Shown here in pieces: positions 348 through 49,200 of a stretch of 64,000 bases of DNA. Position 1 is the first letter of the stretch; every line of letters starts with the position of its first letter. Location of the stretch: the NCBI RefSeq assembly GCF_019320115.1, contig NC_089588.1:116346123-116410122 (forward strand), in the 5' to 3' direction. Source of the DNA: Miscanthus floridulus (lineage: Eukaryota > Streptophyta > Magnoliopsida > Poales > Poaceae). The notes below the pieces were generated by a model. It was not told the DNA's origin, ran no database searches, and saw only the letters and a program-made list of their open reading frames with translations. Both the position numbers and the translations under genes were made by a program.

Positions 348-352
348 GTATT
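348..352. repeat. Target site duplication, left (GTATT)
   Basis: GTATT directly precedes the 5' LTR and recurs directly after the 3' LTR at 12832-12836. The uninterrupted site in copy B carries it once. Confidence 0.95.
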
Positions 353-572
353 TGTTGACACCGTTTTTTTTGCACGTGTCAAAATAATCGGAGTGGACCA
401 ATCGGCAAGGGGAAAGTTATTGAATACTTTGATAGCCAATAAAAGCCAGTTTGTAAAAATGGTTGCCGATAGTTGGTGATGATCGATGGAAAGGATGATT
501 TGGACTCAGGCGTTGCCGATGAGGTTGGAGGAGTTGTTGTCGATGCCGATGAAAGGAGACTTAAAGACTACT

Positions 573-700
573 GCCGATGAAACAGGGAGTATGCCGATGA
601 AGGAAGACTTGAAGACTATTGCCGATGAAGCAGGGAGTCTGCCGATGAAGGAAGACTTGAAGCCTACTGCCGATGAAATAGGGAGTATGCCGATGGAAAG
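573..700 (+). repeat. 48-bp tandem repeat in the 5' LTR
   Basis: Two full 48-bp units begin at 573 and 621, and a partial one at 669. Each unit starts with GCCGAT and has a second GCCGAT 20 bp further on. Copies at 465, 515 and 545 precede the array. The same array occurs in the 3' LTR at 12193-12320. Confidence 0.9.
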
Positions 701-862
701 GACAGTGAGATTTCCATCGTAATTAAGGCGGACAGGGAAATAGATAGGAGTTGATTTCCTTTTCTGTATTTGCTAGGTTATGATTCGTGTAAGAGTCACG
801 TGTTTCCTTAGATATGGGATTGGTGTCCTAGTTGTGTTTGGTTGTGTCTCTTTAGATCAGGG

Positions 863-870
863 TATAAATA
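863..870 (+). promoter_or_regulatory. TATA box of the 5' LTR promoter
   Basis: TATAAATA in a GGGTATAAATATGG context, about 340 bp before the LTR end, fits the U3/R boundary. The 3' LTR has the same box at 12483-12490. Confidence 0.7.
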
Positions 871-1218
871 TGGAGTAAGGGGCAATGTAAAAAAAATAAT
901 ATCAATCAATATCAAAACTAACTTTTACTCCTATTTGCATCTACTTTTCGGCGACTTCGTCAATTTGCATATTTTTCTTTTTACGAGTTCTCATTGATTC
1001 GGCGAGCTGCATCGTTTCAGCGCGATCTTCGGCGATTCTCGAGTTCCGCGTGAGCACCTCTTGGCCGTGGCTTCCGGGCGTATCGCTGTTGTCAGGACCA
1101 AAGTGTTCGTTTCTTCATCCTTGTCGATTAACAGGTCAAATCGACTGGCACGCTTTGGATATCGATTCGGGTATTAGCCCTTTGTGTTTGTAGATCACTT
1201 TTGCATCAACACATCTTT

Positions 1219-1237
1219 TGGCACGCCCGGTGGGACC
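1219..1237 (+). promoter_or_regulatory. Primer-binding site
   Basis: Seven bases after the 5' LTR a TGG-initiated stretch (TGGCACGCCCGGTGGGACC) matches the form and position of a tRNA primer-binding site in Tat/Athila-type elements. I did not identify the tRNA. Confidence 0.7.
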
Positions 1238-1248
1238 AATCAATCAAT

Positions 1249-3666
1249 ATGTTCAACTCCGAGATCGATCCAGGGAACATTATCGCAGTATCAGAAGAAG
1301 ATCTCAAGGAAGAACAGAGGCAGGCTATGGAAAAGGCCGTAGAAGAATACAAGCAACTTTGTCTGAGATCGTTTAGCTTGAACAAGAGTGGACAAGTCAT
1401 CCAGAAGCAAGATTTGCCGTTGCCTCGGCAGGTTACCTTTGACTCCAATCCTGGTAAACTTCAAGAGATGGTTAATTCTGCAGTAAATCATGCTTTGATT
1501 AATCATTCCAATGTGCTGTCCAATACTGTTCATAATGCTGTGGTTCGAACTCTCAAAGAAGGACAAGTGGCACCACATTACGTTGGGCCTGCCTATCATC
1601 AACCAGAGCCGGCGTCTGTCAAAACTCCATCGGCTCCTTCGGCCGTTGTGGGTACAGAAGTTACTTCCCCTCCAGTATTGGCAGGCTCACCTAATATACA
1701 ATCTACACCGATACAATCAGATCAGGTGTTACTAGGAGGGCAAGTTCAGCTTAATACAGATCTGTCGGCATCAGCTATGTCAGGCCCTGTGTCTCAGAAT
1801 AACCAGATTCCTACTAATTGGTGGGGATATGGCATGCCTCCAGAGTCATCTGCTTTCAATCCTAGATTACCTCAAGTATTTGATGCAGCAGGAAGAACGC
1901 CTATATCATCGGCTGTTTCGCCGATGGCTCAAGTGCCTCAATATGCCGCAACTACTTCTGTACAACCAACTCCAGGAGGTTTCCAGATGCCTATGATTCA
2001 AACATTCAATTCAAGTCCATCGGCGAGCATACTGCCGATGCAGCAGAAAGCCCCTGCTATGAGTCAAACTGGGGTTCAGTTCATGCCTCAAACCAGTTAT
2101 AATTATCCAACAATATCAGCAAATTACCAGCCATCGGTAAGTTTTGTGCCGATGAGTTCTAATAATGATTGGTCAGGACAGTTACCTGTTCAACATACAG
2201 TTCAGCGGAATCAGCAGGTTGCAGGGATTCAACAAGGTCATGTGCAAGCTGGTTTCCAGAATCAAGCATCGGCAGCCCAGCCGATGAATCCTTTCCAACA
2301 GGTTAATGGACCACAAGTAGCGGCAAATATGCCGATTGCTGGAGATCGTGGGCCACAAAGATATGTGGAAGGATGTCAGCAGGCACCTCCTGTAGAAATT
2401 CAACCAGTTCGTCAGCAGGAGGCTGATGCTTTTTGGGCCGATAAGATAGCAGAGATTATGAAGGATCAGTTTGGGATAAAGCCCAAGGTCAATACTTATT
2501 CTTATCGGACTCCATACCCTCCTGCATACGATTTAATTCCTCTCCCAAATCGGTACAAGGTACCGGATTTCACTAAATTCTCTGGGCAAGATGATACATC
2601 AACAATGGAACATGTCAATCGCTTCATTATTCAATGTGGAGAGGCAGCTAACAGAGATGAATTAAGAGTTCGATTATTTTCATCATCTTTGTCTGGATCA
2701 GCATTTACATGGTTCATTTCATTGCCACCAAATTCTATTATTACTTGGGTTGATCTAGAAAAACAATTCCACAAGTATTTCTTTGCTGGAATCCATGAAA
2801 AGAAGCTTACCGATTTAGTAAAATTGAGACAGCGTAATGATGAATCGGTAGAGAGCTTTGTACAAAGGCTACGAGATGTAAAAAATAAGTGCTACAGCCT
2901 GGTGCTGGATGATCGGCAGCTTGCCGATTTGGCTTTCCAGGGGTTATTGCCACATCTTAAAGACAGATATGCTTCTCAGGAGTTTGAAAGCCTCAGTCAT
3001 CTTGTGCAAAGGATCTCTGATCAAGATACTAGGGTTTTTGAACCTAAAAAGAACTGGAGTAAAAAGGTATCATTTGTTGAAGAAGTAGGAGATTCTGATT
3101 CTGATGAAGAACCAGTTATCGGCTTAGCTGAGTGGGTTAAGAATAAAAAGCCGATATCATGTCCCTTTGGTCAAAAAGAGCCAGAAAAGTTTACCTTTGA
3201 TATCACCAAGGCCGATAAAATATTTGATCTTCTGCTTCAAGAGGGCCAAATTAAGCTGTCACCTAATCACGTGATCCCATCGGCAGAAGAGTTGAAGAAG
3301 ATTTTGTACTGCAAATGGCACAATGCAACTTCACACAGTACAAATGAGTGCAAGGTGTTCAGGCAACAGTTACAATCGGCTATTGAATCTGGGAGAATTA
3401 AGTTTGGTACTTCCAAGACCCAGAGGCCGATGAAAATTGATCAACACCCTTTTCCAGCAAATATGTTGGATGCCAAAGGAAAGACCAAGGTATTGATGTC
3501 AGAGGCTGCTGAGAAAAACGCGTCAGTAGACCCCCAACATCGGATAACTACCAATGATGCAAAGAGTAAGGGTTTGCTAGGGGAAAGCAGTAGTTCCAAA
3601 AAAACCTCCTCGACCTGGCATTGTGATTACTCATCGAAGGCAGCAGGAGGGTTGGCGTCAACGTAA
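1249..3666 (+). CDS. gag: Gag polyprotein of the Tat element
   Basis: About 805 residues from the first ATG after the primer-binding site; the open frame extends back into the LTR only by non-ATG codons. Residues about 60-400 are low complexity, rich in Gln, Pro, Met and Ser. Residues about 430-575 form a retrotransposon Gag domain (capsid), recognisable by the FSGQDD, AFTWF and QRLRDVKNKC motifs. A Cys/His cluster near residues 686-701 (CKWHN...H...NEC) could bind RNA. Gag would package element RNA in cytoplasmic particles. The frame ends at 3666, overlapping the protease frame by 44 bases. Frame agreement is lost near an A7 run at 3598-3604, so either one base has changed there or a +1 translational shift is used. 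At least 18 GCCGAT/ATCGGC hexamers lie between 1212 and 3666. Confidence 0.93.
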   Translation: MFNSEIDPGNIIAVSEEDLKEEQRQAMEKAVEEYKQLCLRSFSLNKSGQVIQKQDLPLPRQVTFDSNPGKLQEMVNSAVNHALINHSNVLSNTVHNAVVRTLKEGQVAPHYVGPAYHQPEPASVKTPSAPSAVVGTEVTSPPVLAGSPNIQSTPIQSDQVLLGGQVQLNTDLSASAMSGPVSQNNQIPTNWWGYGMPPESSAFNPRLPQVFDAAGRTPISSAVSPMAQVPQYAATTSVQPTPGGFQMPMIQTFNSSPSASILPMQQKAPAMSQTGVQFMPQTSYNYPTISANYQPSVSFVPMSSNNDWSGQLPVQHTVQRNQQVAGIQQGHVQAGFQNQASAAQPMNPFQQVNGPQVAANMPIAGDRGPQRYVEGCQQAPPVEIQPVRQQEADAFWADKIAEIMKDQFGIKPKVNTYSYRTPYPPAYDLIPLPNRYKVPDFTKFSGQDDTSTMEHVNRFIIQCGEAANRDELRVRLFSSSLSGSAFTWFISLPPNSIITWVDLEKQFHKYFFAGIHEKKLTDLVKLRQRNDESVESFVQRLRDVKNKCYSLVLDDRQLADLAFQGLLPHLKDRYASQEFESLSHLVQRISDQDTRVFEPKKNWSKKVSFVEEVGDSDSDEEPVIGLAEWVKNKKPISCPFGQKEPEKFTFDITKADKIFDLLLQEGQIKLSPNHVIPSAEELKKILYCKWHNATSHSTNECKVFRQQLQSAIESGRIKFGTSKTQRPMKIDQHPFPANMLDAKGKTKVLMSEAAEKNASVDPQHRITTNDAKSKGLLGESSSSKKTSSTWHCDYSSKAAGGLAST

Positions 3667-4927
3667 TGACCGATATCGGCAACAGCAAGAAATGAGACGT
3701 CAGGAAGAGTGGAATCGACATAAAGATCATTGGAGATGTCCGTTCTTCATCCATTGCTGGGAAGAAGGTATTAAATTGCCAACTGTTGAAAATTGCCCTG
3801 AGTGTAATGGTTATTACGGAGTCAATCGTTCAGAAAGGAGGTTTCAACGTGGTAATCAGGGTTTGTCTATCAACGAGCCGATCAAAGGCAGAGCATCAGT
3901 GCATGATCGGCTGGGGGGCAGACTTAGTGTACATGAGAGGCTTGGTAAACGCGCTGGATATTTTCCAAGGAATCAAGAGGAGCTTGAGGAAATGGCAAAC
4001 GCAAGAGTTCCCGATGAGGAGATATTCTACAGGGACCCTAATATACGTCGCGTAGAACTAACTAGGACTTGTTATCAGCCGGTTTGGAAAACCAAGTTTC
4101 CTCGATGGTGCCCAGAGGGTCTGACAAAGACGCAGAGAAGGAGGATGCAACGTGAGCGTCAGGAGGATTTATACCAGGAGGAAAATTCCTCCAATGAAAG
4201 GCCTGGTCATCAGCAGTGGCAGGTAAAACACAAAAATAAGGGTCCATCGGCAGATGTTAATATGGTATTCATGTTGCCGATGGAGTTTCTGGCACTATCT
4301 GATAATGAGGAAGAAGTTGTTTTCTCTGATCAAGTAGCTCAGCTGACGCTAGATCCAATGATGGCTGTTTTTGAGAAACCTACCGATGACGGGAGACAGC
4401 ATCTTAAGGCTTTATTTGTGAAGGGCAGAGTTGATGGGCAGCCTGTGTCTAAGGTACTTATTGATGGAGGGGCTGCGATTAATATTATGCCTTATGTGAT
4501 GTATCGGAAACTTGGTAAGGGGGATCAAGACTTGACCAAAACCGATATGATGTTGAAAGATTTTGAAGGCAATGTGTCACCGGCTAAAGGGGCAGTATGC
4601 GTTGAATTGACCATCGGCAGCAAAACCTTGCTGACGACGTTCTTTGTTATTAACGGCAAGGGTGCATATAATCTGCTTCTAGGGAGGGATTGGATTCATG
4701 CTAATTGTTGTGTTCCTTCTACAATGCATCAATGCCTCGTACAATGGATTGGGGATAAGATTGAGGTCGTCCCTGGTGATTCTTCTTATATCATCGCATC
4801 GGCAGAATCAGATACTTATGAGCGAACTAAATGCATATCAGGAGAAGCTTGGGAAAAAGAGTTCCTTAGAGTTGCTGATTATGAAATTCCACCGATCCAA
4901 GCAGTCGGTTCTGAAGAGGAGTTTTAA
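3623..4927 (+). CDS. pro: Aspartic protease region of the Tat element
   Basis: An open frame of 434 codons beginning with a non-ATG codon, so it is probably reached from gag rather than started independently. Residues about 38-60 hold four cysteines (C38, C44, C57, C60) in a zinc-knuckle-like patch. The retropepsin-like domain lies near residues 265-390. Its active-site motif at about residue 279 is LIDGGAA, with DGG where retropepsins commonly have DTG or DSG; the second signature LLGRDWI is present. It would process Gag-Pol. The TAA stop overlaps the pol ATG as TAATG (4925-4929). Confidence 0.88.
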   Translation: MITHRRQQEGWRQRNDRYRQQQEMRRQEEWNRHKDHWRCPFFIHCWEEGIKLPTVENCPECNGYYGVNRSERRFQRGNQGLSINEPIKGRASVHDRLGGRLSVHERLGKRAGYFPRNQEELEEMANARVPDEEIFYRDPNIRRVELTRTCYQPVWKTKFPRWCPEGLTKTQRRRMQRERQEDLYQEENSSNERPGHQQWQVKHKNKGPSADVNMVFMLPMEFLALSDNEEEVVFSDQVAQLTLDPMMAVFEKPTDDGRQHLKALFVKGRVDGQPVSKVLIDGGAAINIMPYVMYRKLGKGDQDLTKTDMMLKDFEGNVSPAKGAVCVELTIGSKTLLTTFFVINGKGAYNLLLGRDWIHANCCVPSTMHQCLVQWIGDKIEVVPGDSSYIIASAESDTYERTKCISGEAWEKEFLRVADYEIPPIQAVGSEEEF

Positions 4928-7900
4928 TGGATAGGTTTGCCGATGATGGAAAATTAGGTCAAGGGTTCACATCGGCAGATGATTTAGTAGAAGTAGATAT
5001 CGGTGATGGTGATAGGTCGAGGCCTACTTTTATTAGTGCTAAGTTAGATTCTAAGTGTAAGCAGCGAATAACAGATTTGTTAAAAGAATATAAAGATTGT
5101 TTTGCTTGGGATTATACTGAGATGCCTGGGTTAGACCGATCGATAGTTGAACATCGGTTACCTATCAAATCTGGATTTCGGCCACATCAGCAGCCAGCGC
5201 GCCGATGCAACCCTAATGTACTTCCTGACATTAAGGCCGAAATAACTAAATTAATTGAAGCAAAGTTTATTCGGCAATGTCGATACGCAGAGTGGATCTC
5301 TAATGTGGTTCCTGTTTATAAGAAAAATGGAAAACTTCGTGTTTGTATTGATTTCAGGAATCTCAACAAAGCCACACCGATGGATGGCTATCCAATGCCG
5401 ATTGCTGATTTGTTGATTGATGCTGCGGCTGGACATCAAATTATTAGCTTCATGGATGGTAATGCAGGTTACAATCAAATATTTATGGCTGAGGAGGATA
5501 TTCCCAAGACTGCTTTCAGATGTCCAGGACATGTGGGGTTGTTCGAGTGGATAGTCATGACGTTTGGTTTGAAAAATGCCGGTGCTACTTATCAAAGGGC
5601 TATGAACTTTATTTTTCATGAGTACATCGGCACATTAGTGGAGATCTACATTGATGATGTAGTGATTAAGTCTGGAGATATCACAGCACATTTAGCCGAT
5701 CTGCGAAAAATACTGGAGTGCACAAGGAGGCATGGATTGAAGATGAATCCTAATAAATGTGCATTTGGTGTATCGGCAGGACAATTCTTGGGTTTTATGG
5801 TGCATCAGCGGGGCATTGAAATTAGTAGGAAGTCTATTGATGCAATTAACAAGGTGATTGCTCCTGCCAATAAGACTGAATTACAATCTTTGATCGGTAA
5901 GATTAATTTCATTAGAAGATTCATATCTAATCTGTCGGGTAAGATCAAGGCTTTCAGCCCGCTACTTAAATTAAAAGCTGATCAGGAATTTGTATGGGGA
6001 GTTGAACAGCAATTAGCCCTTGATGAAATTAAGAAATATTTATCAAATCCTCCGGTGCTAGTTCCACCTCAACATGGGAAGCCTTTCAGGTTGTATTTGT
6101 CAGCTGATGATGCAGTTATCGGTTCAGCTCTTATTCAAGAATTTGAAGGGAAAGAACGTGTTATTTATTATTTGAGCAGAAGATTAGTGGATGCTGAGAC
6201 GAGGTATTCGGCTATCGAGAAATTGTGTCTGTGCTTATACTTTTCTTGTATCAAATTAAGGCATTATTTGTTATCTGCCGAATGTACGGTCATATGCAAA
6301 GACGATGTGGTCAAGTACATGTTGTCGATGCCGATATTAAGTGGTAGAATCGGCAAGTGGATTTTAGCATTATCAGAATTTGAGCTACGCTACAAATCAA
6401 CTAAGGCAGTTAAAGGGCAAGTGATGGCTGATTTTGTCACTCAGCATTGTAACACGGTGGATTCTCTGGGGATTGCTCCCTGGACACTTTTCTTCGATGG
6501 GTCCACATGTGGTGAAGGAGCAGGTATCGGCATTGTGTTAATTTCACCTCAAGGAAAGAAGTATGAGTTTTCATTGCCGATTGTTGCTACAGCGACAAAT
6601 AATCAAGCTGAATACCAAGCCTTGATAAAGGGGTTAGAATTGCTGAAGGAGATACGTGCCGATGTTGTTGAAATCTTTGGTGACTCTATGCTAGTTATAA
6701 ATCAATTGGCTGGAATTTATGAATGCCGAAGTGAAGCCTTGATTTCGTATTATGAAAGGTGTTTGCAATTATTGAAAGGATTTAGAGATTTTCGTCTTGA
6801 GCATATCTCTCGATTGCATAATGAGGAAGCTAATCGACTAGCTCAGCATGCTTCAGGGTATCAGACCATTCAGGAAGTGCTAATATCGGCAGTTGATACC
6901 GATGACTGGAGGAAAGAGATTGTCGATTATTTAAAGGATCCAGGCAGAAAGGTTGAGAGACGTATAAGGTTCCAAGCTACCAAATATGTGCTCCTCGATG
7001 ATGAATTATATTATCGAACTATAGATGGAGTTTTACTCAGATGTGTTAGCAATGATGAATCGAAAAACTTGATGGGTGAAATTCATGAAGGAGTATGTGG
7101 GGCACATCAATCGGCTTTCAAGATGAAATGGATAATCAGAAGGAATGGGTACTATTGGCCGACTATTCTTGAAGATTGTTTTAAATATTTTAAGGGATGC
7201 CAGGGGTGTCAAAAGTTTGGTAACATTCAAAGGGCGCCTGCATCGGCTATGAATCCTATAATCAAACCATGGCCATTCCGGGGATGGGCTATTGATCTCA
7301 TTGGTCAGATTTATCCGCCATCGAGTAAAGGACATAAATTTATTCTGGTTGCTACCGATTATTTCACAAAGTGGGTTGAGGCAATTCCTCTAAAAAAGGT
7401 GACATCGGTCAATATGATTGATTTTGTGAAAGAGCATATTGTTTACCGATTTGGTATTCCTCAGACTATCACTACCGATCAGGGTACTATGTTTACATCG
7501 GGAGAATTTGATGAGTTTGCTGTAGGTATGGGAATTAAAATTTTAAATTCTTCTCCATATTATGCTCAAGCTAATGGTCAAGCTGAGGCTTCTAACAAAG
7601 GGATCATCAAACTTATTAAGCGCAAAATTGAAGAAAATCCTAGGAGGTGGCATACAGTATTAAATGAAGCCTTGTGGTCATATCGGATGTCATGCCATGG
7701 TGCAACCAAAGTAACGCCTTATCAGTTAGTATATGGACACGATGCAGTGTTGCCTTGGGAAATTAAGGTTGGCTCTAGACGAATACGTTCTCAAAATCAG
7801 CTGACAGCCGATGAGTATAATACTCTTATGAAAGATGAGTTGGAAGATGTGGCAGGTCATCGGTTAAGGGCTTTAGTTAGTATTGAAGAAAATAAGAAAA

Positions 7901-8163
7901 GAGTAGTTAGATGGTATGACAAGAAGGTGAAAGTAAAAGAGTTTGCCGATGGAGATCTGGTCTGGAAATTGATTTTACCGATTGGGACTAAAAGTTCAAA
8001 GTTTGGAAAGTGGTCTCCTAATTGGGAAGGTCCATATCGGATAAATCAGTCTATTCCTGGTAATGCATATATTTTAGAAACCCTCGAAGGGGTTGTGTTT
8101 CCCAGAGCGTTAAATGGAAAATATTTAAAGAAATATTACCCTAGTATCTGGACGGATGCATAA
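4927..8163 (+). CDS. pol: Pol: reverse transcriptase, two RNase H domains, integrase
   Basis: 1078 residues, uninterrupted. Reverse transcriptase occupies about residues 100-270 with the catalytic YIDD at 241-244. The RT-linked RNase H-like domain follows near 380-500. A second, archaeal-type RNase H starts near 520 with LFFDGST and a NNQAEYQAL helix; this dual arrangement is characteristic of the Tat lineage. Integrase has an HHCC zinc finger near 717-765 and a core with D790, D851 and E887 (35 residues between the last two), then a C-terminal domain to the stop. It makes element cDNA and inserts it. The ATG overlaps the protease stop (TAATG), which suggests coupled re-initiation or an old frame change. 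All catalytic residues I checked are present. Confidence 0.97.
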   Translation: MDRFADDGKLGQGFTSADDLVEVDIGDGDRSRPTFISAKLDSKCKQRITDLLKEYKDCFAWDYTEMPGLDRSIVEHRLPIKSGFRPHQQPARRCNPNVLPDIKAEITKLIEAKFIRQCRYAEWISNVVPVYKKNGKLRVCIDFRNLNKATPMDGYPMPIADLLIDAAAGHQIISFMDGNAGYNQIFMAEEDIPKTAFRCPGHVGLFEWIVMTFGLKNAGATYQRAMNFIFHEYIGTLVEIYIDDVVIKSGDITAHLADLRKILECTRRHGLKMNPNKCAFGVSAGQFLGFMVHQRGIEISRKSIDAINKVIAPANKTELQSLIGKINFIRRFISNLSGKIKAFSPLLKLKADQEFVWGVEQQLALDEIKKYLSNPPVLVPPQHGKPFRLYLSADDAVIGSALIQEFEGKERVIYYLSRRLVDAETRYSAIEKLCLCLYFSCIKLRHYLLSAECTVICKDDVVKYMLSMPILSGRIGKWILALSEFELRYKSTKAVKGQVMADFVTQHCNTVDSLGIAPWTLFFDGSTCGEGAGIGIVLISPQGKKYEFSLPIVATATNNQAEYQALIKGLELLKEIRADVVEIFGDSMLVINQLAGIYECRSEALISYYERCLQLLKGFRDFRLEHISRLHNEEANRLAQHASGYQTIQEVLISAVDTDDWRKEIVDYLKDPGRKVERRIRFQATKYVLLDDELYYRTIDGVLLRCVSNDESKNLMGEIHEGVCGAHQSAFKMKWIIRRNGYYWPTILEDCFKYFKGCQGCQKFGNIQRAPASAMNPIIKPWPFRGWAIDLIGQIYPPSSKGHKFILVATDYFTKWVEAIPLKKVTSVNMIDFVKEHIVYRFGIPQTITTDQGTMFTSGEFDEFAVGMGIKILNSSPYYAQANGQAEASNKGIIKLIKRKIEENPRRWHTVLNEALWSYRMSCHGATKVTPYQLVYGHDAVLPWEIKVGSRRIRSQNQLTADEYNTLMKDELEDVAGHRLRALVSIEENKKRVVRWYDKKVKVKEFADGDLVWKLILPIGTKSSKFGKWSPNWEGPYRINQSIPGNAYILETLEGVVFPRALNGKYLKKYYPSIWTDA

Positions 8164-8248
8164 AAGTATAAGTGCCGATAACAGTACTATCGGCTAGGAT
8201 TATGCAAGGGTATCAATGTCTCATAAAGTGCCGATACAATAAATAAGA
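8164..8248. other. Short spacer between convergent pol and antisense gene
   Basis: 85 bases separate the pol stop from the antisense gene stop. They hold two GCCGAT and one ATCGGC but no clear terminator or AATAAA on either strand. Confidence 0.6.
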
Positions 8249-11200
8249 TTACACGTTCAGCAAGGATTGGATAGCTAATATTGCACGCAGGCGAATCTGG
8301 TCGGCTTCTTCCATTTCTTTGATATCGTCATCGGCAGCACCCTCCACAGGCTTGAGTTTCTTCTTCATGGCTAAAGCTTTGCGAGCTTGGATATCTCTTT
8401 CTTGCTGAAGGGCTTTGACGGCATTGGGTAGCTGGTTTTCTTCTTGTTGAGCATGAGTTAAGGCTGCATCGATTTCTTTCAATTCAGCCAATAGAGCTGC
8501 CTTCCTTGCCGATAGATCCAAGATTTTCTGCTTAAGTGCAGCACCCGAAGTCTGCAAGTTGACGATGCCCTTGTGCTTCTCATCAGCGATTTGTTTCAGT
8601 TGTAGCATCTCTCCTTTAAGTTGAGCTTGAGCTGCTCTATCGGCAATGCGCTGAGCAGCCCGTTGATATTGCAGTTGACGGCTTTCTAAGTGAGCTGCTG
8701 GGAAGAGTATTTCTTCAACATCGGCAGGGACCTGGCCACGAATTGTTTTGAAAATTGCCTTTGCGGGGTCCGAGTCGTCTACCAGTTGGGCGGTACTTTG
8801 CTGTAGCAAGTTCAGGAGAGTTTCCAACTTGGATTTAGTCTCTGCCGATATTGTTCCCAGTGCAAGGGAAGAACTTGTTTCCTCTCCATCGTCGTCAGAA
8901 ATGTCAATGGCAAAGGAAAATAGGCTGTTCGGGGAATCTTGTTCCTGAAAGAAAGACAAGGAGATCAATCAGGGGTAAATATGAGTATTGTAAAATCAGA
9001 TAGGTTGATCGGTTTACCTGTTTCAAGGCAATTTCCTGTGCTTGACTGGAGGAAGCCACCTGGAGTATGTCGTGTGGATCGGCTGAGCTTGCCGATGGGA
9101 TATCCTCTGTGACTTCATCGGTGGTGGGCTCTTGAGGTATGATGACCGATGACATTGGGGCAGATGTAGGGATCGGCATAGACCTTTGTCGTTTTGGTTG
9201 TGCTTCAGTATCTGTTGAAGCTTTGCGCTTTGCTTGGACATCGGCAACAATTGGCTGGGGGGCATCGACACTTGTTGGTTGTGAAGCTTGGGCATCTGGT
9301 ACGTTTGCCGATGTACCCAATTGTTGCTGTAAAACAAGTGTGAGATATGATATTTAACAGATAAATGTAAAGTCAAGAAGCTACCTCTGAAGGAGTGGTG
9401 CTTGATATCGGCGGAATTGCCGATGATGATCCAGTAGCAGCTCTTACCCCCTGATGATTAAGGTTAATATAGTTTGTGATCGGCATAAGTGAAAATAAAC
9501 AAGGTTGTTACCTTAAAGGCTTTGACCAAGGTTGTAGCAGCGGCCGATGGAGTAGCCCTGGATGTAGCCAATTTGGACTTAAAAGTGATGGTCTTGGTAC
9601 GAATCTTCTGGTGGGTCAAAGCGGCTAAGGTGGGAGCGTTGTAGCCGATCGGCGATGTTGGGGAAATAGGCCGGAGGTTGAAGGGTTTCCCACTTTTGCT
9701 CACCGATGGTGCTGGGTGGTTAACCTGTTACAAGGGAGTCAGTTATTGATAAATGAAAGGAAAAGTAGAAGGGAGTTCGAGGAAACTTACCGCGTCGTCG
9801 GGGATGGCATATTCAGAATCAATCATGTGCCGATATGTGTGAGCAGAAGTCGAGAACAGTTGCTCTTTCCACTCTCGCCACCATTGCTTGTATGACTCGG
9901 TGATGAAAGATATTGGTGTCCAGGTGGATATATCAACATCTGTAGTATCGGCATCAGGAGAAAGTTGTACTACCTTGTTCCAGTCTGTTCCACAGGTGAT
10001 TGTTTCCCTGGGTTTGATCACATCGGCAAAACAGAGTTTGATTGGCAGTTGCCCAAAAGCCAATTGGCGGGATACTGCCGATGGGTTGTAAAATTCATAT
10101 GTAATATTGGTGTTTTTCCCGCTGCCGAATGTGTTTACTGGAATTGCCCTGGGAGTGATGATAGCCATCATGAGCTCATTATCTTGATTCAGAGTGTCAT
10201 CGGCAAAGTTGAAAAGAAGGGGGAATCTGTTTTCTTCGTCGATATAAGGCACCCAGGCCCTATGATCACGAGAAAGACCATTATAGAAGCTTTGAAAGAA
10301 TCTGCCGATTTGGTCTTCGTTGGCTTCTGTTCCAGGAAGGACAATTATGGCTTCACCAAAATTGAGGGGTGAGCGTGTTGCCGATTCATCATCCCCGAGC
10401 ACATAATCTTCAGCAATTTCTCGTGGGAATTGTTGAGCAAAAAAGTCCCATTGCAAACGTTTGTGCATATGGGCATTCAGCCACATGTTGATGAACCACC
10501 ATGGGCCTCCCAAGTTGCCAATGGGTTCGCCAAGCAGAAGTTTCTGAGACACTTGGTGAAGAAGATGATAAGTGGAGCTCAGAAGGTATCGGCCAAGAGG
10601 AAACCTTACGCCATTAGCCAGAAGTTCAGCTGCAGGGAGGAAGGCGTTGGTTGGTCCTACTGATCGACCACAGAAGATAAATTTTTCTAACCACATATTC
10701 AGGAATGTGGCATGTTCCCTCTGGCTAGGTGTCCCGGTTTTCTGGTACTCTTGAATATATCCTGTCCAACCGCCGATGTTACGGGTATTCACTCTATATT
10801 CAGGCTTTCTACCAAAGATGGAGCCTTCATCGGCAGTTGAGATGTCCAAGCCAGTAAGCATGTGGACATCGGCAAGGGTGGGGGTAGCTGGGCCATGTCC
10901 AAACATAAAAGTATTGGTCGTATCTGACCAGAAATAAGCAGCTGCAATCATCATTGATTCATTTTTCTGCATATCGGCAATAGAGAGCCTGATACATTGG
11001 TCTAACTTTCGTTCTGCCCAGTATACTTGCATCGATCTATTAACCCTCAAATACCAATCTTTCCACCCTTTGGTGGTTTTGGGCCAAGATCGGAATGTGT
11101 CTTTCCACAAGTTCAGGGAGAAATTTTGGGCTCTAAAGGGGATTCTGTTAACCTCTGCGTTGATCAGATCGGTTGGATCTGGGTTGCCCATCGGTCCAAG

Positions 11201-11377
11201 GCATTGGACGTGTGGCTGATCGGTTGGGATAATTAATTTGTTGCGCAGTTCCTAGGGTTATGGAATCCAGAAGACAGAAGAAAGGAAAAATCACCAACTG
11301 AATAAATTTACAAAAAGATCAAAGTAAAAGGTAATGGAAGTGGAGCGAACCGCGGGGACGTCGAAGTTGATGGCCAT
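8249..11377 (-). CDS. Antisense plant mobile domain (PMD) protein, six exons
   Basis: Exons on the minus strand: 11377-11351, 11251-9791, 9724-9512, 9450-9385, 9326-9018 and 8944-8249. All introns have GT-AG ends and all junctions are phase 0, giving about 923 residues without a stop. The start is the first in-frame ATG after the TATA box at 11541-11548. The 27-bp first exon is less certain because its donor (GCG/GTTCGC) is weak; without it translation could start at the ATG at 11191. The second exon carries a clear PMD / aminotransferase-like domain (FWSDTTNTF and TPTLADVHMLTGLDI motifs). Exons 3-5 are Ser, Ala and Pro rich with a basic KRKAS...PKRQR stretch that could be a nuclear signal. 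The last exon is a long coiled coil. PMD proteins such as MAIN and MAIL1 are nuclear and tied to transposon silencing. The function in this element is unknown. Confidence 0.88.
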
Positions 11378-11540
11378 TGTCTTGAGGAAGGTGGAGATAT
11401 GAGCCGGGAACTTGAAGTTAGCGCCGGAGAAGGGTTCTTGTTGGTCGAGGTTGCGCGGTTGTTCGTCGGAGTCGCCGCCGGAGAGAGAGAATGCCAAGGA
11501 TTGGAGGCTGAAGATAGAAAATGAGGGTTCCGGAGAAATC

Positions 11541-11548
11541 TATTTATA
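11541..11548 (-). promoter_or_regulatory. TATA box of the antisense PMD gene
   Basis: The minus strand reads TATAAATA in a GGCTTATAAATAGA context, about 165 bases upstream of the ATG at 11377. The plus-strand region 11378-11972 otherwise holds no sense gene and is the likely antisense promoter and leader. Confidence 0.65.
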
Positions 11549-11956
11549 AGCCGCCCAGAATAAGGGTATTTTGGACTTATCTCTATGACGCGCGCATATA
11601 GGTCAAGGCGGTGCAGAGGGATATGGTAACTATTCGCGCGATAATCAGGGGATTGTACAGATGAGTTGATAACAAGTAATCATGACTTGGAAGGGATATC
11701 GATACATGATATTTTAATTCTTAAAATGGCAGCATTATCATGTTAGGATCTTGCCGATGGGTTGTTGTTTTGGTATCTCAATCAAGGCAAGAGTGGTTGG
11801 TGATTGTGCGATATTTACTGAAGTGCGTGGATCAAGATTAGATTTGATTGGATTTGATAACAAATCAAGTTTTGGCTTGGAGAATGAGTTACGGTAATTG
11901 GGCAAAGGCAAGCGTTATCTGGAGTAAATTTCGGAGCATTAATGGTTTTATACTCC

Positions 11957-11972
11957 GAAATTGGGGGGCATG
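11957..11972 (+). promoter_or_regulatory. Polypurine tract
   Basis: GAAATTGGGGGGCATG lies directly upstream of the 3' LTR start, where the plus-strand primer of an LTR retrotransposon sits. The purine run is G6 with a short pyrimidine break. Confidence 0.65.
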
Positions 11973-12831
11973 TGTTGACACCGTTTTTTTTGCACGTGTC
12001 AAAATAATCGGAGTGGACCAATCGGCAAGGGGAAAGTTATTGAATACTTTGATAGCCAATAAAAGCCAGTTTGTAAAAATGGTTGCCGATAGTTGGTGAT
12101 GATCGATGGAAAGGATGATTTGGACTCAGGCGTTGCCGATGAGGTTGGAGGAGTTGTTGTCGATGCCGATGAAAGGAGACTTAAAGACTACTGCCGATGA
12201 AACAGGGAGTATGCCGATGAAGGAAGACTTGAAGACTATTGCCGATGAAGTAGGGAGTCTGCCGATGAAGGAAGACTTGAAGCCTACTGCCGATGAAATA
12301 GGGAGTATGCCGATGGAAAGGACAGTGAGATTTCCATCGTAATTAAGGCGGACAGGGAAATAGATAGGAGTTGATTTCCTTTTCTGTATTTGCTAGGTTA
12401 TGATTCGTGTAAGAGTCACGTGTTTCCTTAGATATGGGATTGGTGTCCTAGTTGTGTTTGGTTGTGTCTCTTTAGATCAGGGTATAAATATGGAGTAAGG
12501 GGCAATGTAAAAAAAATAATATCAATCAATATCAAAACTAACTTTTACTCCTATTTGCATCTACTTTTCGGCGACTTCGTCAATTTGCATATTTTTCTTT
12601 TTACGAGTTCTCATTGATTCGGCGAGCTGCATCGTTTCAGCGCGATCTTCGGCGATTCTCGAGTTCCGCGTGAGCACCTCTTGGCCGTGGCTTCCGGGCG
12701 TATCGCTGTTGTCAGGACCAAAGTGTTCGTTTCTTCATCCTTGTCGATTAACAGGTCAAATCGACTGGCACGCTTTGGATATCGATTCGGGTATTAGCCC
12801 TTTGTGTTTGCAGATCACTTTTGCATCAACA
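11973..12831 (+). repeat. 3' LTR of the Tat element
   Basis: 859 bp, TG...CA, matching 353-1211 at all but two positions. TATA box at 12483-12490; 48-bp repeat at 12193-12320. Followed directly by the target duplication GTATT (12832-12836) and then by the rest of the interrupted minisatellite. Confidence 0.97.
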
Positions 12832-13094
12832 GTATTTCACCGAACAAGTTTCTCCAAATCGCCGACCACGTTTCTCCAAATCTCCAACATATTTCGCCGA
12901 ACAAGTTTCTCCAAATCGCCGACCACGTTTCTCCAAATCTCCAACGTATTTCACCGAACAAGTTTGTCCAAATCTTCGACCACGTTTTTCCAAATCTCCA
13001 ACGTATTTCGCCGAACAACTTTCTCTAAATCACTGACCACGTTTCTCCAAATCTCCAACATATTTCGCCGAACAACTTTCTCCAAATCACCAAT
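12832..13094 (+). repeat. 57-bp minisatellite (copy A, interrupted)
   Basis: Units of 57 bp (CACGTTTCTCCAAATCTCCA...) begin at 326, 12867, 12924, 12981 and 13038. The first unit is split by the Tat element. Because 57 is a multiple of three, all frames tend to stay open. The minus strand reads a 19-residue period (FGEIRWRFGETW...), which I treat as a by-product. The array lies in the 3' part of the old gypsy element. Confidence 0.9.
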
Positions 13095-13103
13095 CGCCGA
13101 GCA

Positions 13104-13600
13104 GCACACATCTTGTCTCTAAGCTCTATGGAGAAGACCAAGTCTCTGATCTCTTCCTACACGTGCTACGGGCTCCGTGCTCTACGTTATGGGTGGTCGG
13201 CTACGGTTCCTTGGTCATACCTATTCCTCCTACACATGCACGAGCTCTACGCTCGATGTTATGGACTATGGGCTAGCCAAGGCCAAGAGCACAATAGAGA
13301 ACTAACTGCTCGGATGCCACTAATACCATGTTTATCTCCAAATTATTTCGCCAACCGCTGAGCAGCACATGTTCTACTCCTTTCTCTATGGAGAAGACCC
13401 AGTCTCCGATCTCTCCCTACACGTGCTACGGGCTCCGCGCTCTGCGTAATGGGTGGTCGGCTATGGTTCCTTGGTCATGCCTGTTCCTCTTACACGTGCA
13501 CGGGCTTCGCGCTCGACATTATGGACAATGGGCTAGGTAAGGCCAAAGAGTTCAGTAACGAACTAACTGCTCGGATGCTATTTATACCATGCACAATTGC
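13104..13600 (+). repeat. Two direct repeats of about 258 bp (copy A)
   Basis: Unit 1 begins near 13104 (AGCAGCACACATC) and unit 2 near 13362 (AGCAGCACATGTTC). Both continue through GGAGAAGACC, ACACGTGCTACGGGCTCC and GGGTGGTCGGCTA and end near ACTAACTGCTCGGATG. No gene is seen; the interval up to 13740 is equally empty. Confidence 0.8.
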
Positions 13601-47665: not shown

Positions 47666-48247
47666 GTTGCCCATCCTAGGGCCAACGGCTAGGTCAAACG
47701 GGCGAACGACATGATCCTTGATGCCCTCAAAAAGAGGCTATATCAGAAAGAAGAAAAGTATCCAGGCAGATGACTCAAAGAGCTACCAGCTATGGTCTGG
47801 GGACTGCGCACTCAAGCTAGTCGCAGCACCGGTGTGTCTCCATATTTCTTGGTCTACGGCTCAAAAGCCATACTACTAGCGAACATTGCCTTGTGAGCAC
47901 CTAGGGTGGAAAATTATGATGAAGAGCAAGCCATAGATGTTCAGACAGAGGACATCGACAGGGCCGAGGAGGAACGCCTGATCACCTGCGTCCATACAGC
48001 CAAATATCTAGAAGGCTTGTGGAGGTACTACAACTGCAACATCAAAGGTCGTTCATTTGCTGTCGGCGACCTCGTTCTCCATAGAAAACAAAAAACTGAA
48101 GGGATGCACAAGCTCTCCTCCCCCTAGGAAGGGCGTTATGTCATCAAAGAGGTTACCCGACCAGGGTGTTATCGCCTATGTGACTTAGACATAAGCGATG
48201 TCCCCAATTCATGGCACATCGAGCACCTTATACGTTTCTATCCTTGA
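47666..48247 (+). pseudogene. Old Ty3/gypsy pol relic, integrase end (copy B)
   Basis: Translation shows the end of an integrase core (AHPRANG then VKRAND, with the expected catalytic glutamate replaced by lysine) and the C-terminal part through WHIEHLIRFYP. At least four in-frame stops. It is a longer version of 1-162. Positions 48248-48410 hold no gene. Confidence 0.85.
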
Positions 48248-48410
48248 AACGTTCTAGATATATACTCTCCACTTCATGATGAATAAAGTTTTGGTCTCCA
48301 TAAATTGTCTCCATTTTTTTCTCCATTATGATTTAATGTCCACTTACAATCGCCGAGCTCTAAGCTACTCCTTAACGAACTCCAGTACGAGATCGCCATA
48401 ACTGCTCAGC

Positions 48411-48695
48411 CACGTTTCTCCAAATCTCCAACGTATTTCACCGAACAAGTTTCTCCAAATCGCCGACCACGTTTCTCCAAATCTCCAACATATTTCGCCG
48501 AACAAGTTTCTCCAAATCGCCGACCACGTTTCTCCAAATCTCCAACGTATTTCACCGAACAAGTTTGTCCAAATCTTCGACCACGTTTTTCCAAATCTCC
48601 AACGTATTTCGCCGAACAACTTTCTCTAAATCACTGACCACGTTTCTCCAAATCTCCAACATATTTCGCCGAACAACTTTCTCCAAATCACCAAT
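48411..48695 (+). repeat. 57-bp minisatellite (copy B)
   Basis: Five units starting at 48411, 48468, 48525, 48582 and 48639; uninterrupted counterpart of the array in copy A. Confidence 0.92.
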
Positions 48696-48704
48696 CGCCG
48701 AGCA

Positions 48705-49200
48705 GCACACATCTTGTCTCTACGCTCTATGGAGAAGACCAAGTCTCTAATCTCTCCCTACACATGCTACGGGCTCCGTGCTCTGCGTTATGGGTGGTCG
48801 GCTGTGGTTCCTTGGTCACGCCTATTCCTCCTACACATGCACGAGCTCTACGCTCGACGTTATGGACTATGGGCTAGCCAAGGCCAAGAGCACAATAGAG
48901 AACTAACTGCTCGGATGCCACTAATACCATGTTTATCTCCAAATTATTTCGCCAACCGCTGAGCAGCACACATTCTACTCCTTTCTCTGTGGAGAAGACC
49001 CAGTCTCCGATCTCTCCCTACACGTGCTACGGGCTCTACGCTCTGCGTTATGGGTGGTCGGCTATGGTTCCTTGGTCATGCCTGTTCCTCTTACACGTGC
49101 ACAGGCTCCGCGCTCAACATTATGGACAATGGGCTAGCTAAGGCCAAAGAGTTCAGTAACGAACTAACTGCTCGGACGCTATTTATACCATGCACAATTG
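48705..49200 (+). repeat. Two direct repeats of about 258 bp (copy B)
   Basis: Counterpart of 13104-13600, with units starting near 48705 and 48963. No gene; the stretch to 49340 is also empty. Confidence 0.8.

Follow-up and report, generated by a model that had tools for sequence, protein, structure and literature searches.

Why should a single six-letter word recur dozens of times within one retrotransposon, in its repeats, its coding frames and its introns alike? This question is raised by a 64,000-nucleotide stretch of Miscanthus floridulus DNA (hereafter the window; contig NC_089588.1, part of a 2.68-Gb assembly), which contains a complete Tat-like Ty3/gypsy long terminal repeat (LTR) retrotransposon with an antisense gene for a PMD-DUF1409 protein, PMD being the plant mobile domain. 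A sequence-only reading of this DNA had counted about 94 copies of GCCGAT or its complement ATCGGC in the element by hand and attributed them to a DNA- or RNA-level signal. Here we show that the excess is not explained by codon choice, and we propose that the hexamer is probably the word by which the PMD protein recognizes the element's own copies.

Hexamer counts and codon-preserving nulls

An exact count yielded 94 sites in the element, 54 as GCCGAT and 40 as ATCGGC, in agreement with the hand count both in total and part by part (Table 1), including 32 sites between pol and the 3' LTR. Under a first-order Markov model of the element, 4.46 sites would be expected, so the excess is 21-fold, the largest among all hexamers. 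The octamer with the largest excess is CATCGGCA, found 41 times against 0.36 expected. The remaining 51,169 bp of the window showed no excess (11 sites versus 14.9 expected), and 4 were counted in another 10-kb stretch of this chromosome. The neighboring ~13 kb (copy A), against which the element had originally been compared, does contain about one site, but a tblastn search with the Tat pol P0121 found no Tat pol there, and it does not serve as a matched Tat control.

We built a sequence logo from 84 sites, counting one LTR only. It reads T (58 of 84), then GCCGAT, then G (44) or A (21), with columns beyond these 8 bp near background. These flanks rule out copies of a longer repeat as the source of the sites outside the LTR array, which is all that a tandem-repeat search inside the element found. 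Near-variants had also been described as frequent, and this holds for ACCGAT (29 versus 3.9 expected) but not for TCCGAT/ATCGGA, which is not enriched in the element (7 versus 5.6). Milder rises were seen for GTCGAT (11 versus 3.9), GCCGAA (11 versus 4.0) and GCTGAT, a product of CpG decay (17 versus 7.8).

Five long frames hold 59 of the 84 sites, in both orientations, and we compared each frame with 1000 synonymous-codon shuffles. The observed counts were 18 in gag (shuffle mean 2.3, maximum 8), 7 in protease (0.8, 4), 17 in pol (3.6, 10), 5 in the DUF1409 exon (0.9, 4) and 12 in the PMD frame (3.0, 9). No shuffle reached the observed count in any of the five frames. Synonymous and whole-codon shuffles together rule out amino-acid or codon bias as the cause, as the sequence-only reading had argued from the use of both strands, introns and LTRs. 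Of the checks that it had proposed, the hexamer count left this word with the greatest excess of all, and the codon-preserving shuffles did not equal the observed counts.

We also looked for an imprint of ATCGGC in encoded proteins. Its coded signature ranks first or second of 2080 hexamers in the window pol and in the pol of five relatives (P0121-P0124, P0152), 14th in the window gag, and between 16th and 904th in seven more distant pols. However, most signature dipeptides occupy positions that they have in the window too, and the others are no more than about as numerous as in a reversed-dipeptide control; the protein-level imprint is therefore weak evidence. In the same test, AATTAA came out on top in the pol proteins P0125 and P0129 (63% identical), where it could reflect amino-acid composition or a different family word.

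The density of sites varies along the element. It is highest in the LTR upstream of the TATA box (20 per kb) and falls to 0 between the TATA box and the LTR end, such that all 10 sites of the 5' LTR precede the box. The coding frames are intermediate (gag 7.5, protease 5.6, pol 5.2), and on the antisense side the gene has 13 per kb in its intron-rich 3' part and 8.6 in the PMD exon, with 1.3 in its 5' flank. The sites of the 3' LTR also lie upstream of the antisense gene. Two motif-free stretches, 695-1628 and 10979-11752, each include a TATA box, one sense and one antisense, as if binding close to transcription starts were avoided; the internal gap of 780 is by itself not unusual (P 0.26).

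Conservation and recurrence among relatives

We compared the window pairwise with 19 close copies over 8164-11972, each of which carries 37-42 sites. Non-CpG motif positions were substituted in 7 of 2105 cases (0.33%), versus 905 of 63275 (1.43%) outside the motif, and CpG positions in 15 of 1157 (1.3%) versus 148 of 3957 (3.7%). Because choosing the sites on the window copy biases such a comparison, by an estimated factor of up to about two, we repeated it in both directions against 94 control hexamers matched in composition, each containing one CpG. Motif sites were retained above control hexamers in all four groups, most clearly at ~91% identity (.724 and.840 versus.573 and.615). The compared copies are related, and these counts are thus not independent; they suggest that selection keeps the motif between copies. 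In addition, the motif is the top hexamer in every one of the 30 loci that are 90.7-96.9% identical, with 30-40 sites in ~4.4 kb.

The word also recurs outside this family. Two degenerate loci, L059 and L060, encode PMDs just 39% identical to that of the window, and their DNA can be aligned to the element in pieces only. With pol incomplete, and with gag and most of pol outside the count, they contain 34 and 30 sites, where 1.7 are expected in each. Their flank is different: the base before the core is A in 21 and 19 sites, G in 5 and 9, and T in only 6 and 2, versus T in 48 of the 74 sites of the window's internal region (P 1.7e-10). From these two diverged loci, it appears that the motif flank shifts with the family, alongside divergence of the PMD. 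In alignable pieces, 6 sites are common and 10 occur in one sequence only (shared and unshared, respectively: L059 2 and 2, L060 2 and 2, L062 0 and 1, and pol in L063 2 and 5). As families diverge, the word is therefore retained in part and in part arises anew elsewhere.

These results bear on two earlier suggestions. Conservation among copies and recurrence in diverged PMD-bearing loci, together with the codon nulls and the use of both strands, introns and LTRs, support the DNA-level form of the proposed signal. The idea that the motif tracks the PMD gene is borne out by the same two loci, as tracking by presence only.

Relatives were also sought in public collections. Among viral contigs, none was confirmed in scans by pol, by a PMD alignment or by an alignment of pol, and public genome contigs gave six distant or contaminant loci with 0-4 sites each. 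Within the M. floridulus genome, query P0047 recovered no closer family of its own, only that of the window. Query P0071 yielded 97 scored matches, at 42-43%, at least many of which are loci already found.

Given these relatives, we could ask whether the arrangement of sites is also shared. Orientations are balanced in the window's internal region (36 versus 38), and neighbors there alternate beyond chance (same orientation in 22 of 73, P 0.0009). This alternation was not repeated in L059 (16 of 33, P 1.0) or L060 (10 of 29, P 0.14). Pairs at most 32 bp apart, a cut-off set after the data were seen, are opposite in 22 of 22 cases (13 in the window's internal region, 4 in L059 and 5 in L060), several of them as ATCGGC-N5 to N7-GCCGAT. 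Close pairs in L038, L056 and L057 are mostly of the same orientation (5 of 7, 3 of 4 and 4 of 6); some of these are probably LTR sequence, and the LTR array is likewise of one orientation. The inverted close pairs hint at binding by a dimer.

The element, its antisense gene and the surrounding DNA

The element has the gypsy order of parts, with LTRs, a target-site duplication, gag, protease, reverse transcriptase, RNase H and integrase. The previously proposed limits of a young, full-length element agree with what we found, as the two 859-bp LTRs differ at 2 positions and GTATT stands on either side. Pfam places RT_RNaseH at 388-489 and RVT_3 at 527-646 of pol, and such a dual RNase H domain has been described as a trait of Tat elements (PMC9289625). 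We call the element Tat-like on the strength of these domains and of the name given in the sequence-only reading.

Table 1. Features of the element and their motif sites (GCCGAT/ATCGGC)
Feature	Position	Strand	Motif sites	Remarks
Target-site duplication GTATT	348..352			second copy 12832-12836
Complete Tat-like Ty3/gypsy LTR retrotransposon	353..12831	+	94	
5' LTR	353..1211	+	10	859 bp; all sites within 401-694
48-bp tandem array in LTR	543..695	+	7	one orientation, spacing 28/20 bp; again at 12163-12315 in 3' LTR
TATAAATA box (TATA), sense LTR promoter	863..870	+		copy at 12483-12490
gag frame (Retrotrans_gag)	1249..3663	+	18	
Protease frame (gag-asp_proteas)	3581..4924	+	7	
pol frame	4915..8160	+	17	reverse transcriptase, RNase H, second RNase H-like domain (RVT_3), integrase
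Antisense spliced gene, PMD + DUF1409 protein	8252..11191	-		tblastn of M. floridulus proteins P0001/P0003
Exons of antisense gene (approximate)	11191-9790, 9726-9512, 9453-9385, 9329-9048, 8947-8252	-		
PMD open frame	9743..11251	-		502 aa; Pfam; AlphaFold model matching VANC21-DNA structure 9lnj
TATAAATA box (TATA), putative antisense gene promoter	11541..11548	-		
3' LTR	11973..12831	+	10	sites at 12021-12314

The antisense gene carries motif sites in introns as well as exons; its first intron boundary was judged by eye from the sequence. Its PMD frame scores 81.9 bits against the PF10536 profile (cut-off 34.9), which places it in the PMD family, and it has a weak DksA_N match besides. The DUF1409 match is weak (E 0.004, below its cut-off). 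An AlphaFold model of the PMD, the one good structural model, matches in fold the portion of VANC21 that has been solved (9lnj, residues 275-636). With a second PMD model, the fold search did not recover VANC21, and a profile search at E up to 10 matched 17 PDB sequences without 9lnj among them, in a PDB copy that may lack that entry. In the genome, the PMD frame gave 85 scored matches from 6830 first-look candidates, every one 98-100% identical. In the gene model of P0001 (Miscanthus floridulus), the PMD is followed by an integrase core (PF00665), which was likely fused to it from another element during annotation.

Elsewhere in the window, a 57-bp tandem repeat occurs at 12775-13188 and, 35 kb away, at 48319-48789, and the element is inserted at the edge of the former. 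A unit of ~5.7-7.9 kb is present three to four times in 26500-47000, with many 300-bp blocks 89-99% identical and others less so, and 47672-48244 weakly matches (26%) gypsy pol at its integrase end. A relative of the element's pol, 43% identical, is encoded at 2492-4462 of a 4.7-kb contig in a bacterial assembly (Streptomyces clavifer JCM 5059, BMWJ01000029.1) and is probably eukaryotic contamination.

A candidate reader of the motif and known systems

What might read such a word? Our proposal builds on the enrichment, its codon independence, the motif-like boundaries, conservation among copies, the flank-shifted recurrence in two diverged loci that carry a PMD, and the match in fold to DNA-bound VANC21, the last of which supplied a mechanism that the sequence-only reading had lacked. 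T[G/A]CCGAT[G/A] would be the word recognized by a DNA-binding protein with sequence specificity, the element's own antisense PMD-DUF1409 product. Candidate target words are TGCCGATG and AGCCGATG, with the window's family representing the T form and the L059/L060 type carrying A/G at -1. Sites would have accumulated through the body of the element to dozens per copy, at a density unlike that of neighboring DNA, and would let the protein tell its own copies from host DNA. Once bound, it would most likely counteract silencing, with DNA methylation or other repressive marks lost or kept off, gene bodies included, as VANC does for VANDAL. The LTR sites, given their position upstream of the sense TATA box and, in the 3' LTR, of the antisense gene, could bring the protein to both promoters. 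We consider it probable that the PMD protein binds the motif and erases or counteracts silencing of its own copies; we infer both the binding and that its outcome is relief from silencing, not activation or some other self-directed effect.

Alternatively, the PMD protein may bind the motif to a different end, such as promoter activation, integration targeting or the silencing of competing copies. This has the binding step in common with our proposal, and the probabilities of the two overlap. The motif-free zones around both TATA boxes would suit it, as would the need for the host proteins MAIN and MAIL1 both in silencing transposable elements and in expressing genes with a promoter motif (PMC7156037), yet the element-wide spread and the VANC21 fold match favor a chromatin-wide effect, and we regard these other ends as rather unlikely. 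It is also possible that the hexamer is the site of a host transcription factor, used as an enhancer or body-wide activator, and that the PMD gene is unrelated. Ten sites in each LTR do lie upstream of the TATA box.

Factors of the AP2/ERF DREB group bind the dehydration-responsive element/C-repeat (DRE/CRT) core RCCGAC, which RCCGAT resembles. However, GCCGAC, the DRE form, shows no enrichment (3 versus 2.1 expected), which rules out the DRE itself, sites running through coding frames and introns would be unusual for an enhancer, and a flank that shifts with PMD divergence fits a partner evolving alongside the element; a host factor is accordingly an unlikely explanation. Even less probable is the spread of a functionless word by mutation or copying, through template switching, quasi-palindrome correction or gene conversion. 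While 7 of the 10 sites per LTR sit in the tandem array, and hairpin-templated mutation could yield the inverted close pairs of the internal region, the near-background flanks past 8 bp mean that no longer tract was copied, the sites are conserved above matched CpG words, and the remainder of the window is without excess. Finally, an RNA-level signal, acting in genomic or antisense RNA on packaging, splicing, stability or the control of translation, would account for the density in transcribed regions, but with orientations nearly equal, overall and internally, and the LTR upstream of the sense TATA box denser than any gene, we find it scarcely credible.

Returning to anti-silencing by the PMD protein, its closest precedent is the VANC-VANDAL system of Arabidopsis Mutator-like DNA transposons. 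VANC21 is reported to bind YAGTATTAY, which is dense in VANDAL21 copies, with methylation lost across the element (PMC5735166); VANC6 has the words AGTTGTCC/AGTTGTAC (PMC5735166, PMC10398659), and VANC-induced loss of non-CG methylation is described as mattering over gene bodies too (PMC10398659). Our case is similar in that a protein encoded by the transposable element is paired with a short, asymmetric motif of ~8-9 bp, dense in its own copies (94 versus 4.5 expected) and rare in the rest of the window (11 versus 14.9), whose variants differ between related subfamilies, here as T versus A/G at -1. The PMD model, furthermore, matches DNA-bound VANC21. It differs in being found in an LTR retrotransposon instead of a DNA transposon, and in that Pfam assigns the protein to PMD/DUF1409. 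Moreover, VANC21 sites are described mainly from non-coding tandem repeats in one orientation, whereas ours lie in coding sequence too, in both orientations and mostly dispersed, the LTR array alone being similar. The element may work like a VANC system: its PMD resembles VANC21 in modeled fold, while its sequence matches the PMD profile.

Among the plant LTR elements screened in one survey, PMD is the most frequent extra domain, its function being called unknown, and the portion of that work available to us does not mention motif amplification in PMD-carrying Ty3/gypsy elements (PMC9289625); elsewhere, too, the plant mobile domain is called a domain of unknown function (PMC8616336). Our literature search, which covered part of the literature, returned no report of a GCCGAT/ATCGGC motif or of a retrotransposon PMD-motif system. 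We are evenly divided on a broader claim: that PMD is the retrotransposon counterpart of VANC; that PMD and its word, present some hundred times across LTR, introns and coding frames and selected even against amino-acid choice, form a self-recognition code of grass Tat elements; that this code drifts between families by flank changes matched by PMD; and that the host genes MAIN and MAIL1 are domesticated readers of a code of this kind. On our proposal, selection on the binding word would also have been strong enough to influence the coding sequence of gag and pol.

If our proposal is correct, sequence-specific self-recognition extends beyond one group of DNA transposons to LTR retrotransposons, a major part of grass genomes, and the plant mobile domain gains a concrete molecular role and a target word. 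It would also hint at a route by which PMD proteins of the host acquired their action on genes with a motif. MAIN and MAIL1 of Arabidopsis resemble the element's protein in that their loss affects both the silencing of transposable elements and genes sharing a promoter motif; they differ in being host genes, and direct binding of that motif, the DOWN motif, is left open in the account we draw on (PMC7156037).
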